From contig QIKW01000214.1 of the NCBI GenBank assembly GCA_003231975.1, forward strand, positions 1-38,331: DNA of 38,331 bases, written 5' to 3'. This document shows, in pieces, positions 4,731-29,043 of the stretch; the stretch's first letter is position 1; each line of letters opens with the position of its first letter. The DNA is from Acidimicrobiia bacterium (GTDB lineage Bacteria; Actinomycetota; Acidimicrobiia; Acidimicrobiales; SZUA-35). The position numbers were made by a program, and so were the translations under genes. The notes under the pieces were generated by a model. That model saw only the letters and a program-made list of their open reading frames with translations, was not told the origin of the DNA and did not search any database.

Positions 4731-5684
4731 GTGATCTTGATCGACGACATCCACCGGGCCGCCGAGCGGCTGAACGGAGTTGCCAGGCGCACCCCGGTGA
4801 TCACCAATCCTGTGATTGACTCGCTGGCTGGATGTCAGGTGTTTCTGAAGGCTGAGAATCTCCAAGTCACAGGTGCATTCAAGTTTCGTGGTGCCTGCAA
4901 CGCTGTCGGTTGTATGGATACCGATCAGCTAAGTGGTGGAGTGGTGGCATTTTCCTCGGGCAATCACGCCAAGGCCGTCGCAACGGCGGCCCAGCTTTGT
5001 CGCACCACCGCGGTGATCGTGATGCCAACCGACGCACCGCCCGAGAAGGTAGATGGCACAAAGGCGGCTGGGGCCCGGGTGGTGTTCTATGACCGTTTTG
5101 GCGAAGACAGAGCGGCAATTGCTGCCGAGATCGCCGAACGCGAAGGCCGGCTGCTGATTGCCCCCTACGACAATCCGTTGGTGATGGCAGGCCAGGGAAC
5201 TGTTGGGCTTGAACTCATGGATCAGGTGACCAACCTCGACGCCCTGTTTGTATGTGTTGGCGGTGGCGGGTTGTTGGCCGGCTGTGCCACCGCTGTTCAC
5301 GCCGGGTCAGGATCGGTTGAGGTGTTTGGTGTGGAACCTGAGGCCAGCAACGACCACGCACTTAGCGCGGCGGCTGGCGAACGAGTAGCCGTTCAGGTTC
5401 AGCCCACAATCGCCGATGGGCAGCAGGTGTCTACTCCCGGCAGGCTTACGTGGCCGGTAACAGCGAGGTTGACAAAGGCCTTCCTTACCGTCAGCGACGC
5501 CGAGATAGTGGCAACAATGAAGCTGTTGTTCGAGCACGCCAAGCTGGTGGTTGAACCGAGCGGCGCCTCGGCTCTGGCTGCGCTGGTGCACCAGGATCTG
5601 CCCGACCTTCGCGGCAAACGAGTGGGGGTAACCCTTTCTGGCGGAAACATCTCACCAGATCGTTTTCACTCATTGGTTGGGTAA
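4731..5684 (+). CDS. PLP-dependent threonine dehydratase / serine racemase-like enzyme
   Basis: 317 residues from the GTG at 4731 (MILIDDIHRAAERL), the length of single-domain serine racemase or threonine dehydratases without a C-terminal ACT domain. Fold-type II PLP signatures are present: Lys51 in GAFKFRGA forms the Schiff base, SSGNHA (75-80) binds the substrate carboxylate, GGGGLLAG (177-184) is the phosphate-binding loop, and TLSGGNI near the C-terminus contacts the pyridine ring. The reaction is probably deamination of serine, threonine or 3-hydroxyaspartate to a 2-oxo acid, or racemisation. The frame is open far upstream through the 7-bp repeat array, but homology starts at 4731. There is no obvious Shine-Dalgarno. 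It stands alone, with no co-directional neighbour. Confidence 0.88.
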   Translation: MILIDDIHRAAERLNGVARRTPVITNPVIDSLAGCQVFLKAENLQVTGAFKFRGACNAVGCMDTDQLSGGVVAFSSGNHAKAVATAAQLCRTTAVIVMPTDAPPEKVDGTKAAGARVVFYDRFGEDRAAIAAEIAEREGRLLIAPYDNPLVMAGQGTVGLELMDQVTNLDALFVCVGGGGLLAGCATAVHAGSGSVEVFGVEPEASNDHALSAAAGERVAVQVQPTIADGQQVSTPGRLTWPVTARLTKAFLTVSDAEIVATMKLLFEHAKLVVEPSGASALAALVHQDLPDLRGKRVGVTLSGGNISPDRFHSLVG

Positions 5685-5786: not shown

Positions 5787-6104
5787 TCAGCGGTCGGCGG
5801 TGTCGATGCCGAACCCGTCCTCCTCAAGTAGTTCCTCGGCTTCAGCGCCGCCCCGGTTGCTGCCTGAATGGCCCGCAGCCACAAAGCTCAACGACCGACG
5901 CTTGGCCGCTTCGGTCGAACGCTCAGCGTGAATGTCGAAGGGATCAGTTCGCCCTGAGGCTCCGACACCTATGAACGCGTCCAGCCCGTCAGGCTCAGCG
6001 TCGGCGACGAACTCAGCGATCAACTCTGCTTCGGCGGTGCCACGCTCAGCCGCGGCGGCAGCCAACGCGGCGCCAACATCGTCGGGGAGTTCGATCGTAG
6101 ACAT
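5787..6104 (-). CDS. Orphan VapB-like antitoxin
   Basis: 105 residues from ATG 6104. The N-terminus MSTIELPDDVGAALAAAAAE is nearly the same as that of the VapB encoded at 9098 (MSTIQLPDDVAAALAAAAAD), and the C-terminal toxin-wrapping tail (AEAEELLEEDGFGID) is also shared, so the two are paralogues. The middle is longer here, with a divergent Asp/Gly-rich insert. In the intact locus the PIN toxin starts inside the last codons of the antitoxin; here no toxin start or PIN motif follows in the 100 bp to the convergent PLP gene, so the toxin is missing. Transcription probably starts at the promoter within the 35-bp repeat, 7 nt upstream of the ATG. It may neutralise the VapC at 9318 or be a relic. 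Confidence 0.75.
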   Translation of the reverse strand: MSTIELPDDVGAALAAAAAERGTAEAELIAEFVADAEPDGLDAFIGVGASGRTDPFDIHAERSTEAAKRRSLSFVAAGHSGSNRGGAEAEELLEEDGFGIDTADR

Positions 6105-6111
6105 GACACCT

Positions 6112-6146
6112 AGTGTAGAACGGGTCTGCGACACAGTCACTGGTCA
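6112..6146 (-). repeat. Left copy of 35-bp inverted repeat carrying a vapB promoter
   Basis: These 35 bp are identical, in inverted orientation, to 9056-9090. Read on the minus strand they hold a candidate promoter for the orphan antitoxin: -35 GTGACT (6135-6140), 17-bp spacer, -10 TACACT (6112-6117), then 7 nt to the ATG, which implies a nearly leaderless transcript. Identity stops at both ends, and the flanking antitoxin genes are clearly less similar than the repeat. Confidence 0.8.
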
Positions 6147-6251
6147 ACTTCCCCCGCCGGGGTTCGGGCGGTTCTCTAGAACAACTTCTTGTTTCAAAGC
6201 AGCCAGCAGTTCTTCTTTCGACATCACGGTGCCATCATCACCGCAGAGCAT
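6144..6251 (-). pseudogene. Short ORF fragment (35 aa), unknown
   Basis: An ATG at 6251 opens a 35-residue frame containing MSKEELLAALKQEVVLENRP, followed by a Gly-rich end. The helix-like MSKEELLAAL looks like coding sequence rather than noise. Its stop codon is the last three bases of the 35-bp repeat, so it looks like a protein truncated where the repeat begins. An in-frame TGA lies three codons upstream. It follows the ankyrin-like gene on the same strand and could be the remnant of another immunity or cassette gene. Not assignable to a family. Confidence 0.3.
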
Positions 6252-6365
6252 TATCGAAGTTGATCAGCCAGAGACGCCTCGCATCCACCGTCGACGGTTA
6301 CCCCGATGTCGGCTCAACCTCCCATCGGCGTGGCAGTCTTGGCACAACGAATCGTGCGCGAGGTG

Positions 6366-7702
6366 TCAGCATCGGTCCCGATACCAGGTTGCGAGCTCGG
6401 CCGAGTGTCGACCAGCCAGGGTCTGAACATCAGGGGCGCTCAGTTGAGCCTGCTGATCTGCGGTCAGGCGGACGCAAGGATCGGCACCGTGGTCTACAAG
6501 CCAATCCGCGAAAAGGGCCTCAGATCGGAATCCGTCCGGCCAGCGTTCGCCCAGCTCTGTTGGCGCCAGAACCAGCAAGAAAGAGTCGGAGGGAACAGAA
6601 CCCTCACCAACAAGGAACCTCAGTCTTTCCAGCGACTGAAACTCAATGGCGTACCCAACCAGATTCTGCCGCTCGGGCTCGCTAAACGGGCCGAGCCGTC
6701 GAAGTTGCCCCACAGAGCTTCCGTCCAGCAGGAATTCAGCAACAGCCGAGGTTGGCGGACATCGGCCCTCGTACCACGATTCAAGCTGGGGCGAGAGAAG
6801 ACCGGCCAGGGTAGGAAGATCCGACCCGCCCAGGAAACCCTGCCTCTTCCGCGACATCTCAAAACAAGGATCGGCCCCTCGGCCCAAAAGCCAGTCAGCA
6901 AGCTCCACCACCTCATCGCCAACCAACGGAAAATCCCCAATCGGCTCGGTGAGTGTCACAAACGAATCAGCAGGCACACTAGATTCGCTGTCAACCAGAA
7001 CCTCCAAGGTTGCCAGTTGCTTGAACCGGATGCCTTCCTCGATCAACCCCTGCCTTTCGGCTGGCGGCATCCGGATTAGGGAGCCAAGAGCAGCCACATC
7101 GCCGTTCCTCGCAGCCACCACAGCCTCAGATTCAGAAGCGCAGCGGCCGTCGTGCCAGACACGAATTTCGGGAGTGTGCCGACTGGCCAACGTCGCAAGA
7201 TCAGCTACTCCATAGATGCGCTGGTCCCACAGCCCAAACTCGAAACACTGATCGGCGCAACGGGCCAAAAGCCATTCCGCAACCTCCACATCCCCATCGG
7301 CGCGCTCTGTTCCATGGCTAGAACGAGAGCCCACCAGCGACAACAGAGAACCGGCCGGAACCCTCCCATCACCAACAAGCGCCTCCAGCATGTCCAAATC
7401 GTGGAATCCAGCCGCCCAACTCACCAGATCATCCCGCGCAGATTTGCTGAGCTGATCAAGATCACCCAGCCCATCCAGATCACCAGCGATCACAGCGCTC
7501 TCGGCCCGCACCGCCGGGCTGTCGATGCCGAAGAACGAATCTTGATCGACGAACAAAGCAATCACCAAGAACAGGTGAGCACAACACCAACCATCATTCC
7601 AGCAACAACAAACCCGCCAACAATCAGCGCTCGTCGAGCCAACGTCGAAACGCCAATCCTCAACACCCACCTCGCTGCGCTGCCCCATCCGCCGTAACGC
7701 AC
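6366..7702 (-). pseudogene. Membrane-anchored three-module ankyrin-like protein, one frameshift; candidate immunity gene
   Basis: Most of the protein is in one frame ending at 6366. It has three homologous modules of about 127 residues ending in VWHDGRC, SWYEGRC and TWYRDRC. Each holds an ankyrin-like helix (for example ELADWLLGRGADPCFE, FADWLVDHGADPCVR), a 'LATLA-RHSxEL' helix and a VPADSF loop. Upstream of about 7600 that frame turns Cys/Trp-rich and implausible, whereas the next frame, from GTG 7702, reads arginine-rich residues then a good membrane helix (RRALIVGGFVVAGMMVGVVL) before stopping at 7562. A one-base shift between about 7570 and 7600 would join them. The start overlaps the end of the RHS toxin frame by 43 nt, the usual place for an immunity gene. 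Family not recognised beyond ankyrin-like; whether the shift is mutation or sequencing error cannot be told. Confidence 0.6.
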
Positions 7703-9012
7703 CAGGACCGACCCTGTCCTATCGCCGTTTCTACAGCATCGATGACCTCATCAACTGAGGCATCTGGGCCAACCTCAAGCCCGATTGCAACCCCAACATA
7801 GTTGTTAGCGATATATCCCTATTGCTGTCCGCGTCGTCAGGCTGGAAGCCCGACTCGTGACCTAACGCGAACTGGAAGGCATCGTCTGGCCCCAACTCCT
7901 GAGTCAGCCTCGCCAACCAGAGCAGGTGGCGCAACGCTTCTCTGTAGTTTCGCCTATCTTGCCTTTCCTTTTCGGAGGCAGGATTCCGGTTGTAGCGTGG
8001 CGGCAGAGAACTCCAATCAGCGGAGTACTCAGTGGTCTCCGAAGTGATCTCTTCGGCCCGTCCCCAGCCCACTCCGCCAGCCGCCATTCCAGTGCATTGC
8101 CATAGACCAACAATCATGCAGGAGATCGCCCAACCCGACGAAGTCCAAACTTGATCACGAAAATCTTGTTGCAACTTTCCGCAGGAGGCCAGCGACCCTT
8201 CTTGGAAACATGAATTGAAGACTGCGAGGTCTTGCTTCCCTTCGAATTCGTCGGCTTTTGTTTCGCGAGTTGCAACCAACATCGGCAGGCGGACAGTCTG
8301 AGTTCCCGGTGGGGTCGATGGCGTTGACCGGGTTGTTTCTGACGTAGGTGTAGCGGTTGAGGCCATCCAACACTGGGTCGGCCATGATGAAGCGGCCTAT
8401 TTGTGGGTCATAGGCCCGTGCGTTGTACTCGATGAGTCCTGTGCCTGGGTCATCTGTTTGGCCGGTGAAAGTTAGGTCGGCTGGCATTTGGTTGCCGCCA
8501 CCACCGCCACGGGTGGCGCCGTATGGCGTGTATCGCTGGGTGACGGTGACACCATCGGTTTGGCGTGAGGTTGTCGCTGATCCGAGATGATCAGCGAGGG
8601 AGGCTTGGTATACGCCGTCGCCGGGTACTCCGATGTTTTGGCCTGCAAATGCGTGTGCGACTGTGATGGATTCAACAATTGTGGTGCCTCCGCCGCCGTT
8701 GTTGCCTGTGGTCCAGTTGATGGTTGCGTCGAGGATGGCCCAACCATCTGTGGTTGGGTTGGCGTTCTGGTTATGCAGTCCGGATAGGCCGACCCGTGCT
8801 TCTGGCGCGGTGTTGCCGTCGGCCAATGTTTGGCCCGACGTGTAGCCGATGAGTGTGTATTGGCCTGCGGTGGTTGTTTCGGCTACCAAAGCCGGGGTTG
8901 CTGTGCCGAGTTCATCGCTGGTGATGTAGCTGATTCCTTTGGCTGATTGCAGGAAGTTGATTGTGCCTGACAGCCCGGCCGCGAGGGGGTGGGCTGGGTC
9001 GGTGATGACCAT
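7660..9012 (-). pseudogene. Truncated RHS-repeat core protein with DUF6973-like C-terminal toxin candidate, two frameshifts
   Basis: From about 9012 the frame encodes first a ThuA/GATase-like module (ITDPAHPLAAGLSGT, later DGWAILDATINWTTG). The RHS-associated core follows (about residues 135-237): LADHLGSATT, RYTPYG, LIEYNARAYDPQIGRF, ADPVLDGLNRYTYVRNNP, AIDPTGN. After AIDPTGN the frame fails near 8262, in an AAAA run. The next frame continues with SCGKLQQDFRDQVW and then YREALRHLLWLARLTQELG, then GHESG. A second shift near 7820 leads to GYIANNYVGVAIGLEVG and VIDAVETAIGQGRS, stopping at 7660. RH-x2-W, HE and NN-x-VG are the landmarks of DUF6973-type domains. There is no N-terminal RHS barrel: upstream the frame runs into the 35-bp repeat and stops in vapB, so this is an orphan RHS C-terminus. 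Confidence 0.75.
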
Positions 9013-9055
9013 CTGGTCTGTCCAGGGGGTGCCTGGGGGGTCGGCGGTGGTGAGG

Positions 9056-9090
9056 TGACCAGTGACTGTGTCGCAGACCCGTTCTACACT
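9056..9090 (+). repeat. Right copy of 35-bp inverted repeat carrying the vapBC promoter
   Basis: Identical to the reverse complement of 6112-6146. Read forward, -35 GTGACT (9062-9067), 17-bp spacer and -10 TACACT (9085-9090) precede the vapB ATG by 7 nt. On the other strand the truncated RHS frame reads into this repeat, so the repeat marks the boundary of the RHS segment. Confidence 0.8.
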
Positions 9091-9097
9091 GGGACCT

Positions 9098-9331
9098 ATG
9101 TCTACGATTCAACTCCCCGATGATGTCGCTGCCGCGTTGGCGGCTGCCGCAGCTGACCGTGAGGTGAGCGTCGATGAGTTGGCTGCGGAGACGATCTCGG
9201 CCCGATTCGGCCCGGTTCGCCGGACGTTGAGTTTCGCAGCGATCGGGTCTTCGACCACGGGCCGAACAGCTGCTGAGGCCGAACAGCTGCTCGAAGAAGG
9301 CGGGTTCGGCATCGATAGTGCTGATCGTTGA
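9098..9331 (+). CDS. vapB: VapB-family antitoxin
   Basis: 77 residues from ATG 9098. The N-terminal half (MSTIQLPDDVAAAL... VDELAAETI) fits a short DNA-binding and dimerisation segment; the C-terminal AEAEQLLEEGGFGID tail is typical of the strand/helix that blocks a PIN active site. It overlaps the downstream toxin by 14 nt, so the pair is translationally coupled. The start is chosen because the candidate promoter -10 ends only 7 nt upstream; frames open further upstream would lie in the promoter. Type II antitoxins bind their own promoter, so the shared 35-bp repeat may be the operator for both VapB paralogues. Confidence 0.85.
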   Translation: MSTIQLPDDVAAALAAAAADREVSVDELAAETISARFGPVRRTLSFAAIGSSTTGRTAAEAEQLLEEGGFGIDSADR

Positions 9332-9737
9332 CACAGCGCCGCTTGTAGCGGCCGCCGATGCTGCTGACCCGATGCATCAACGTTGTTTGGCGTTGCTGCA
9401 AACCCATCCAGGGCCTCTTATCACCACGGCGTTGGTGATCGCCGAAGCTGGTTGGCTTATCCGCCGTCAGCTCGACATCGCCGCCGAGGCAGTGTTCTAC
9501 ACCGCGATTGTTCAAGGCCAGCTCAGCATCGAACCCCTCACCGTCAAGGACTGGGCACGAGTCACCGAACTGCTCGGCACCTACAGCGACATCAACCTCG
9601 ATGCCGCCGACGCGTCCATCATCGCGATCGCCGAACGTCTCAACCAGGCCGTCATCGCCACCCTCGATGAACGCGACTTCCGGATTGTTCGACCCGCCCA
9701 TACCGACGCGTTCGAACTCGTCCCCGGACCCACCTGA
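9318..9737 (+). CDS. vapC: VapC-family PIN-domain ribonuclease toxin
   Basis: 139 residues from GTG 9318, the usual VapC size. PIN-domain acidic residues are all present: Asp5 in LIVDTAPLV, Glu43 in LVIAEAGWLI, Asp95/Asp98 in INLDAADASIIAIAERL, and Asp117 in VIATLDERDF. VapC toxins are Mg-dependent endoribonucleases that cleave tRNA or rRNA loops. The gene overlaps vapB by 14 nt and appears intact, unlike the neighbouring RHS island. A GGCGA-TC-TCGCC hairpin starts 12 nt after the stop and could help end transcription. Confidence 0.9.
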   Translation: MLIVDTAPLVAAADAADPMHQRCLALLQTHPGPLITTALVIAEAGWLIRRQLDIAAEAVFYTAIVQGQLSIEPLTVKDWARVTELLGTYSDINLDAADASIIAIAERLNQAVIATLDERDFRIVRPAHTDAFELVPGPT

Positions 9738-9834: not shown

Positions 9835-10560
9835 CTAATCAGCTGCGGCTTCGGGAAAGGCCACCTCGTCCAAGAACCAGTCGACCAGTGCGTGGCACTG
9901 CTTTATGTTGGCCGCCTCGTAGCGGCGAACCTCTAACATCATCTCCTGCTTGGAGACGCCGTTTTCGGCCAGGTACTCATCCGACGCTCCTTCCAGGAAC
10001 CGGGCGATGTGAGCGGCGTCTACCTCGGGATGAAACTGGGTGCCAACCGTGCGGCCAATCCGGTAGAGCTGGGGTCCGTTAACTGTTTCGGCCAACAATG
10101 TGGCATCTGGTGGGATGCGGAAACGGTCGTGATGCCACTGCATCCACGGCCCCGGCCCAACAGGATTCTCAACACCGTTGGCCGCCTGAATCTCGAACCA
10201 ACCAATCTCGGTGACCGGCGCCGCCTCAACCGAGCCGCCCAAAGCTTCGGCCAGAAGCTGACCGCCAAAGCAGATGCCAAGCACGGCCTTGTCTTTGTGG
10301 GCGATGCGCAGCAGCTCTAGTTCTTCATCCACCCAGTTGCTGATCTCGGCCTTGTTGGTTAGCGAGCGGACCGATCCGGTTGGGATCACAATGTCGAACC
10401 CGTCGAGATTTGGGAACGGAGCGGCAACATTTGGTTGGTCGTGGTTTGGCGTCACCACATGGGTGTGAACCTTCACGCCTCGCTGTACCAGGCGGACCTC
10501 AACCTGGCCACCGGGGCCGTCTGGTTCGTGGGCAATAATCAAGGCTTGCATCTGACCCAT
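9835..10560 (-). CDS. Class I glutamine amidotransferase (GMP-synthase-like GATase1 domain)
   Basis: 241 residues from ATG 10560, chosen because AAGGAGG lies 10 nt upstream; a second Met sits three codons in. The catalytic triad is visible: nucleophile Cys in GICFGGQLLAEALGG, and His-x-Glu in TQFHPEVD. The single-domain architecture is that of the GATase1 GMP-synthase-like group, related to the hydrolases of gamma-glutamyl compounds (PuuD type). It is divergent from the transporter operon that includes a glutamine-synthetase-like ligase. A role in removing a gamma-glutamyl group added by that ligase is an attractive inference, but release of ammonia from glutamine for another partner is equally compatible with the sequence. 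Confidence 0.85.
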   Translation of the reverse strand: MGQMQALIIAHEPDGPGGQVEVRLVQRGVKVHTHVVTPNHDQPNVAAPFPNLDGFDIVIPTGSVRSLTNKAEISNWVDEELELLRIAHKDKAVLGICFGGQLLAEALGGSVEAAPVTEIGWFEIQAANGVENPVGPGPWMQWHHDRFRIPPDATLLAETVNGPQLYRIGRTVGTQFHPEVDAAHIARFLEGASDEYLAENGVSKQEMMLEVRRYEAANIKQCHALVDWFLDEVAFPEAAAD

Positions 10561-10619
10561 CCTATGAGCGCCTCCTTGCCCGGCCCAGGTTGCCGAGCGT
10601 GCACCAGTCGGTGATGATA

Positions 10620-10633
10620 GTTTGGATCCAAAC
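10620..10633. promoter_or_regulatory. 14-bp perfect palindrome, candidate operator
   Basis: GTTTGGATCCAAAC lies in the 126-bp divergent spacer between the amidotransferase and the transporter operon, 59 bp from the amidotransferase start and 53 bp from the lipoprotein start. Short AT-flanked dyads of this form are typical of GntR-type repressors, but no regulator gene adjoins. It could control both directions. Confidence 0.45.
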
Positions 10634-10686
10634 GATTGTTGCATGGCCCAGCCCGCCATGTGAACCGCACAAAAGGGGACCCACTC

Positions 10687-28766: not shown

Positions 28767-28844
28767 CAACTTTGGGGACCCAGTCAACTTCGCTAGCTCG
28801 AAGGCTGGTTCTTGCCAGAGGCCACGTCGGGCCAAGGCGCCACG

Positions 28845-28935
28845 ACCAATGTGGCAGAGGAGCGCCGTCCGGCGCTCGGACCAATGTGGCAGAGGAGCGC
28901 CGTCCGGCGCTCGGACCAATGTGGCAGAGGAGCGC
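28845..28935. repeat. 35-bp tandem repeat (2.6 units) containing an 8-bp hairpin
   Basis: Two complete identical units (28845-28879, 28880-28914) start ACCAATGTGGCAGAGGAGCG, and a 21-bp partial third follows (28915-28935). Each full unit holds GAGCGCCG-TC-CGGCGCTC, a perfect 8-bp-stem hairpin. This resembles intergenic REP-type palindromic repeats. There are no unique spacers, so it is not a CRISPR array. Confidence 0.85.
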
Positions 28936-29043
28936 TCTTTAGGTTGATCCCCATTGGGCCGACCGCCGAAGTCGATCCACTTGTCAACTCGATGAGACAG
29001 CGACGTCAAGGCTTGGGTAGCAAAAGACCACTAGATTGCCGTG

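Follow-up and report, generated by a model that had tools for sequence, protein, structure and literature searches.

A perfect inverted repeat around the remains of a toxin locus raises the question of whether the repeat is the border of a recombining cassette or belongs to the genes beside it. In the window analyzed here (the whole stretch of 38,331 nucleotides from an Acidimicrobiia bacterium, contig QIKW01000214.1), positions 6112-6146 are the exact reverse complement of positions 9056-9090 (35/35), as a preliminary description of this DNA had stated; by simple arithmetic, an exact 35-bp inverted pair is expected by chance in 38 kb at about 6e-13. No further copy of the 35-mer within three mismatches was found in the 3.7-Mb source genome, and a search of 198 genomes at the same tolerance gave no match outside the window. 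Outside each copy lies a vapB-like gene that points away from it, vapB-L on the minus and vapB-R on the plus strand, which agrees with the preliminary description. The repeat and the genes next to it are as follows:

6112..6146, minus strand: left 35-bp copy, the putative promoter/operator of vapB-L, with GTGACTGTGTCGC at 6140-6128 and the -10 element TACACT at 6117-6112
9056..9090, plus strand: right 35-bp copy, the putative promoter/operator of vapBC-R, with GTGACTGTGTCGC at 9062-9074 and the -10 element TACACT at 9085-9090
6041..6149, minus strand: left arm of a 109-nt inverted repeat (85%), comprising the operator and the 5' part of vapB-L
9053..9161, plus strand: right arm of the 109-nt inverted repeat, comprising the operator and the 5' part of vapB-R
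5787..6104, minus strand: vapB-L, 105 aa, a chimeric orphan antitoxin gene; no vapC follows
9098..9331, plus strand: vapB-R, 77 aa, predicted ribbon-helix-helix antitoxin
9318..9737, plus strand: vapC-R, 139 aa PIN-domain toxin, overlapping vapB-R

The inverted repeat is longer than 35 bp because both of its arms are homologous vapB genes. It extends over 109 nt at 85% identity (6041-6149 and 9053-9161), of which the 35 bp are the core, and the arms share a second homologous stretch of 60 nt at 75% (5787-5846 and 9272-9331). As the preliminary description noted, the two vapB genes are less alike than the two copies of the repeat. Elsewhere in the window, three tandem copies of a different 35-bp unit (GGCGCCACGACCAATGTGGCAGAGGAGCGCCGTCC) lie at 28836-28940 within a 118-aa frame lacking a Pfam match; these are unrelated to the inverted repeat.

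We consider it very probable that the repeat serves two paralogous vapB genes, which face outward, as their autoregulatory promoter/operator and that the cargo is not a cassette framed by it. The ATG of vapB-L follows the -10 element TACACT after 7 nt, and the first T of this element is 13 nt before the ATG. In high-GC bacteria, leaderless promoters have a TANNNT element ~12 bp before the start codon (PMC3160421), and TANNNT is a -10 motif in M. tuberculosis (PMC3898074). A scan with the sigma-70 consensus returned no promoter; however, this consensus says little about promoters of the TANNNT type. When the DNA preceding vapB genes of the same family was aligned among relatives, the closer orthologs had (G/A)TGAC-N3-G(T/C)C and, downstream of it, CTANNNT, whose last base is 6-7 nt from the start codon; the distance to the ATG was as in the window. 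The motif is present at equal distance before the ATG in eight distinct orthologs outside the window, five of which carry the perfect 5/5 palindrome GTGAC-N3-GTCAC; the window copies fall short of this, at 4/5 with a GTCGC half-site. In the more distant family members L009, L012, L011, L020, and L022, the motif was absent from the alignment. In 198 genomes, the pattern GTGACNNNGTCNC-N9-CTANNNT-N7-RTG had five matches, all preceding this vapB family (two in the window and one each in G017, G061, and G064), while the reversed control had one. At the level of sequence, the right vapBC module has an inverted-repeat operator, putatively of the ribbon-helix-helix type, that overlaps its promoter and is kept among orthologs.

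Binding of a VapBC complex to an inverted repeat that precedes vapB is known (PMC3302801; reviewed in PMC3920265). We propose that the palindrome GTGAC-N3-GTC(A/G)C would be the binding site of a VapB dimer, joined by VapC on the right side; the TANNNT -10 box that closely follows it may drive a leaderless vapB mRNA. At the vapBC-1 operator of Haemophilus influenzae, VapBC likewise binds an inverted repeat located immediately 5' of vapB (PMC3302801); however, the sequence there is different and Fis is involved, whereas in the window we infer binding from conservation.

The preliminary description had offered two conserved operators with cargo between them as one of its options, and our data favor this option, since the same promoter/operator precedes unlinked vapB genes elsewhere. 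Among these, the vapBC loci L029, L031, L065, and L026 have the operator without an xerC tail and without Rhs matches in the stretches examined. Because the operator is present at unlinked vapB genes, several of them without cargo, the repeat is best read as a promoter/operator. The preliminary description had also reasoned that the same 35 bp upstream of unlinked, cargo-free vapB genes, together with a lack of orientation variants, would reduce the repeat to a shared operator; the distribution of the operator motif agrees with the first half of this expectation. In viral contigs, the motif had 16 matches; as judged by eye, none of their start codons opens a VapB-like frame; by that test, there is no sign that the motif is phage-borne.

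The right vapBC has the organization of a type II toxin-antitoxin (TA) module, a small upstream antitoxin gene encoding a predicted DNA-binding fold and an overlapping toxin gene. VapC-R matches the PIN domain above the cut-off (PF01850, E 3.7e-14) and VapC26 at E 8e-12; with a profile of VapB, the match to VapB26 has an E of 6e-4. The RHH_1 Pfam match of VapB-R is below its cut-off; in the structural model (mean pLDDT 66, confident over residues 1-40 only), strand 4-5, helix 8-20, and helix 25-37 give a strand-helix-helix arrangement over residues 4-37. The nearest solved pair is VapBC26 of Mycobacterium tuberculosis (PDB 5x3t), which, like vapBC-R, is encoded by an overlapping vapB-vapC operon; in contrast to VapBC26, the left copy in the window is a vapC-less, chimeric antitoxin, and two outward vapB genes share one identical operator. 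Candidate functions of the right module are autorepression and an RNase toxicity neutralized by VapB. Its closest relative is the L029 module of an Acidimicrobiales MAG, which lacks xerC and Rhs (VapB 87% and VapC 86% identical). The DNA homology of the cassette to L029 runs from the operator through the vapC stop codon and ends there, and about 8-14 bp on the cargo side of the right operator also resemble the L029 upstream sequence (TGGTGAGG). In our reading, the right vapBC is a separate solo module that abuts a cut Rhs end.

Based on segment comparisons, which were used to tell VapB subtypes apart because the VapB tree is too short to resolve them, VapB-L is a chimera: residues 1-63 (6104-5916) are 79% identical to the "type 2" VapB in G064:C12, while residues 68-105 (5903-5787) are 84% identical to the "type 1" VapB of L030, unlike type 2. 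Type 1 is the subtype of vapB-R. No VapC match was found beside vapB-L, and so the left antitoxin gene is unpaired. In G064:C12 (L067 9150-10420), two modules stand in tandem behind a trace of an xerC tail, in the order operator, vapB2, vapC2, operator, decayed vapB1, and decayed vapC1; a deletion of ~0.8 kb between such modules would yield vapB-L and remove vapC2. Thus, vapB-L probably arose by deletion between tandem vapB modules, an event that would have removed vapC and left a DNA-binding domain joined to a type-1 toxin-binding tail. A similar joining was observed in G002:C407 (L114 3440-3900), where the xerC tail is fused to the 3' end of vapB and followed by a primase fragment, a scrambled relic of the mobile unit described below. 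VapB-L retains an intact frame of 105 aa, the DNA-contact strand STI(E/Q)LP, and a type-1 toxin-binding tail that agrees with VapB-R at 15 of the final 18 residues. Because this strand and the VapB-R-like tail are kept, VapB-L may bind VapC-R; it may also repress the right promoter and neutralize the toxin.

Between the two operators, the following features were identified:

6144..6263, minus strand: C-terminal remnant of an XerC-type tyrosine recombinase (...MSKEELLAALKQEVVLENRPNPGGGS*), last 39 codons
6366..7688, minus strand: 440-aa ankyrin-like protein downstream of the toxin tip, a possible immunity protein (weak match, below cut-off)
7731..8366, minus strand: open frame that contains the sequence following the Rhs core, a probable toxin tip with a weak DUF6973 match; its reading frame differs from that of the Rhs core
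8155..9033, minus strand: Rhs fragment with Rhs_assc_core at its end, its 5' side cut near 9024-9056

According to the preliminary description, truncated frames run into the repeat from inside on both sides. On the right, the Rhs frame is indeed open through the repeat. On the left, the frame exists but counts 39 codons between stops (6147-6263, minus strand), not the 35 residues given earlier. It is the natural 3' end of a lost xerC gene, and the repeat begins with its TGA stop codon. An intact XerC of 378 aa (PF00589; NF002331 XerC) is encoded directly before vapB in G017 and G009, the xerC tail alone precedes vapB in G061/L030, and traces of it are found in G064; wherever the tail is intact, its stop codon overlaps or abuts the operator. 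The continuity of xerC tail, operator, and vapB as in relatives argues that the left operator is native and marks no junction. The actual deletion on the left is between the ankyrin-like gene (6366) and about 6263. The repeat was also considered as an attachment site of XerC and rejected as such, because the motif is present without an xerC tail in L029, L031, L065, and L026. No XerC relatives were found in viral contigs. Between G009 and G017:C28, which represent two species of one genus, 1.9 kb are 99% identical from xerC to the vapC start (L063 1799-3737 and L064 8259-10197), while the flanks differ and vapC is cut in G009; this common stretch may reflect a recent transfer or an assembly break.

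On the right, homology to other Rhs proteins starts at 9024-9033, about 20-30 bp inside the repeat, so that a start exactly at the repeat edge was rejected; the stretch from there to 9056 is ambiguous in origin. On these alignments, the Rhs gene is cut next to, or slightly inside, the repeat. The end of the Rhs core and the toxin-tip frame overlap in different frames at 8155-8366, and the Rhs-toxin fusion therefore looks frameshifted. A second copy of the same Rhs end (78%) is present in the source genome, where it is cut by a contig end (G000:C204, L111 3892-4605).

The suggestion that the repeat is a recombination boundary can be judged against both flanks. It fails on the left, where the arm is continuous with its native XerC tail; on the right, Rhs is cut near the repeat, yet the adjoining 10-20 bp past the repeat seem to be the vapBC module's own sequence; and, as discussed below, the arms probably did exchange sequence. 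In its stronger form, this suggestion holds that the 2.9-kb toxin segment could flip or be swapped by way of the 35-bp arms, acting as homology or site-specific arms. The arms are exact, inverted, and near the minimal length for homologous recombination, Rhs ends within about 0-30 bp of the right arm, the window operators are more alike than the family background, and a recombinase remnant lies beside the left arm. However, the left arm sits in its native context, some 14 bp on the inner side of the right arm are similar to what lies upstream of its nearest relative, L029, and only the tail of xerC remains; no XerC of that kind was found in the source genome at E 1e-20. We consider this explanation very unlikely.

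Known invertible DNA elements of the Hin/fim type are flanked by identical inverted repeats, and inverted repeats likewise flank the segment in the window. In contrast to those elements, no invertase was found in the window, the repeats are promoters of genes outside the segment, and inversion would switch nothing. Among the scanned ORFs of the window, no recombinase family was found; the XerC tail is the only trace, and the genome-wide search covered related XerC at E 1e-20. Because the repeat holds the core promoter up to -8, each vapB would keep its promoter after inversion, with no change in expression or coding. The XerC tail before vapB-L and the L029-like upstream sequence before vapB-R fit the present orientation; however, the xerC tail precedes both VapB subtypes elsewhere, which makes the orientation argument weak. 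The genes flanking the locus, PALP (4752-5684) and GATase (9835-10659), were neighbors in none of the 46 genomes searched, and hence no uninterrupted (empty) site was found. Altogether, programmed inversion is not supported. In principle, contigs of a metagenome-style assembly could have been joined wrongly, or a piece turned around, at the 35-bp repeat; the genome is in 275 contigs, and its relatives are metagenome assemblies. However, the two copies differ in their surroundings on either side, the vapB-side contexts recur in other genomes, and 35 bp is below the usual final assembly k-mers. We regard such an artifact as extremely improbable.

If the repeats are operators, why are the two identical? 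Among the other distinct operators, the mean identity of the 28 pairs is 24.4/35 and the maximum is 31; the one full match elsewhere is between G009 and G017, whose operators belong to copies of a single near-identical element. With 35/35 positions the same, the two window operators are an outlier, while the coding identity of 50/60 is ordinary for the vapB family. Since the two 35-mers are more alike than the family's other operators, sequence was probably exchanged between the arms at some time. Either gene conversion between the arms or selection for co-regulation would have made the operators identical. Our first choice, to which we give about an even chance, is gene conversion, i.e., homogenization by RecA-dependent recombination with no programmed role. 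It accords with the sharp onset of mismatches on both sides of the 35/35 tract, with states within TGACCA before GTGAC that the window operators share and no other operator has, and with the different subtypes of the coding parts of the two vapB genes. However, the tract is short. If divergence were uniform, 35 identical nt in a row would arise with a P of about 0.02 in a 120-nt stretch carrying 18 mismatches, which makes the evidence moderate and means that homogenization is suggested, not proven. Our second choice is that selection keeps the operators identical, with the orphan VapB-L co-repressing and buffering the right vapBC. The retention of the 105-aa frame, the STI(E/Q)LP strand, and the type-1 tail in VapB-L, although its own vapC is gone, speaks for this possibility; however, the shared non-consensus states (the GTCGC half-site and TGACCA) are not obviously favored by selection for binding, and we hold selection to be rather unlikely.

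The cargo itself points to a wider mobile unit. In G017:C28, Rhs, an HTH gene on the opposite strand, a CHC2/Toprim primase, XerC, and vapBC follow one another in the order and strand of the left half of the window; this half resembles such a unit from which parts have been deleted. In the window (9033 to 5787), an Rhs/CdiA tip lies upstream and a TA gene immediately 3' of xerC, all on one strand; the HTH gene, the primase, and intact XerC are deleted, and only the xerC tail is left. From 9033 leftward, the segment would represent a decayed mobile unit consisting of Rhs tip, toxin, possible immunity gene, xerC tail, operator, and vapB-L, from which HTH, primase, and most of xerC would have been lost. 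We suggest that the toxin remains between the vapB genes derive mostly from this unit.

Among PLSDB plasmids, XerC is 46-58% identical in the best hits, and the order there is a CdiA/TpsA/Rhs-type tip, immunity, HTH (opposite), primase, and XerC. A TA pair follows the plasmid XerC in five of the nine records checked (Enterobacter twice, Lonsdalea, Pseudomonas, and Salmonella). Together with G017:C28, the plasmid loci L147, L142, L141, L143, and L139 define a recurring unit of tip, immunity, HTH, CHC2 primase, XerC, and TA. Tandem units are 100% identical over 3.3 kb in Enterobacter and 98% over 2.9 kb in Pseudomonas, and Lonsdalea has one such unit on an 11.3-kb circular plasmid. Zhang et al. 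2012 noted XerC/D recombinase genes beside polyimmunity loci (PMC3482391). Polymorphic toxin (Rhs/CdiA) loci with adjacent XerC/D genes resemble the window, which likewise has an Rhs tip, a toxin, and a possible immunity gene by an XerC relic; unlike them, the window lacks HTH, primase, and most of xerC, while the intact unit with TA is found in G017 and on plasmids. In the passages of that paper considered here, no TA slot behind xerC is described, and our literature search found none of the unit with this slot, although one may still exist.

We tentatively speculate, as a possibility that we would not call likely, that the left half is what remains of a mobile unit that is widespread and possibly undescribed. 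Such a unit would comprise a polymorphic-toxin tip, an immunity gene, HTH, a DnaG-like primase, XerC, and a TA slot; it would exist in tandem and as part of a small circular plasmid, and it would carry toxin tips from one Rhs/CdiA gene to another. According to this model, the TA slot recombines, giving rise to tandem vapBC modules, chimeric orphan antitoxins, and homogenized operators that let an orphan buffer a neighboring vapBC.

The perfect inverted repeat around the toxin remains is, in our interpretation, two antitoxin operators and not a cassette border, and the case guards against taking shared operators for recombination sites. It provides a specific candidate operator for a VapBC26-like family in Acidimicrobiales and clearly exemplifies a chimeric antitoxin without vapC that could buffer the neighboring module. 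Moreover, it points to a unit of toxin tip, primase, XerC, and TA genes that ranges from Acidimicrobiales to plasmids of Enterobacter; this unit may move polymorphic-toxin tips and is possibly an undescribed carrier of them.
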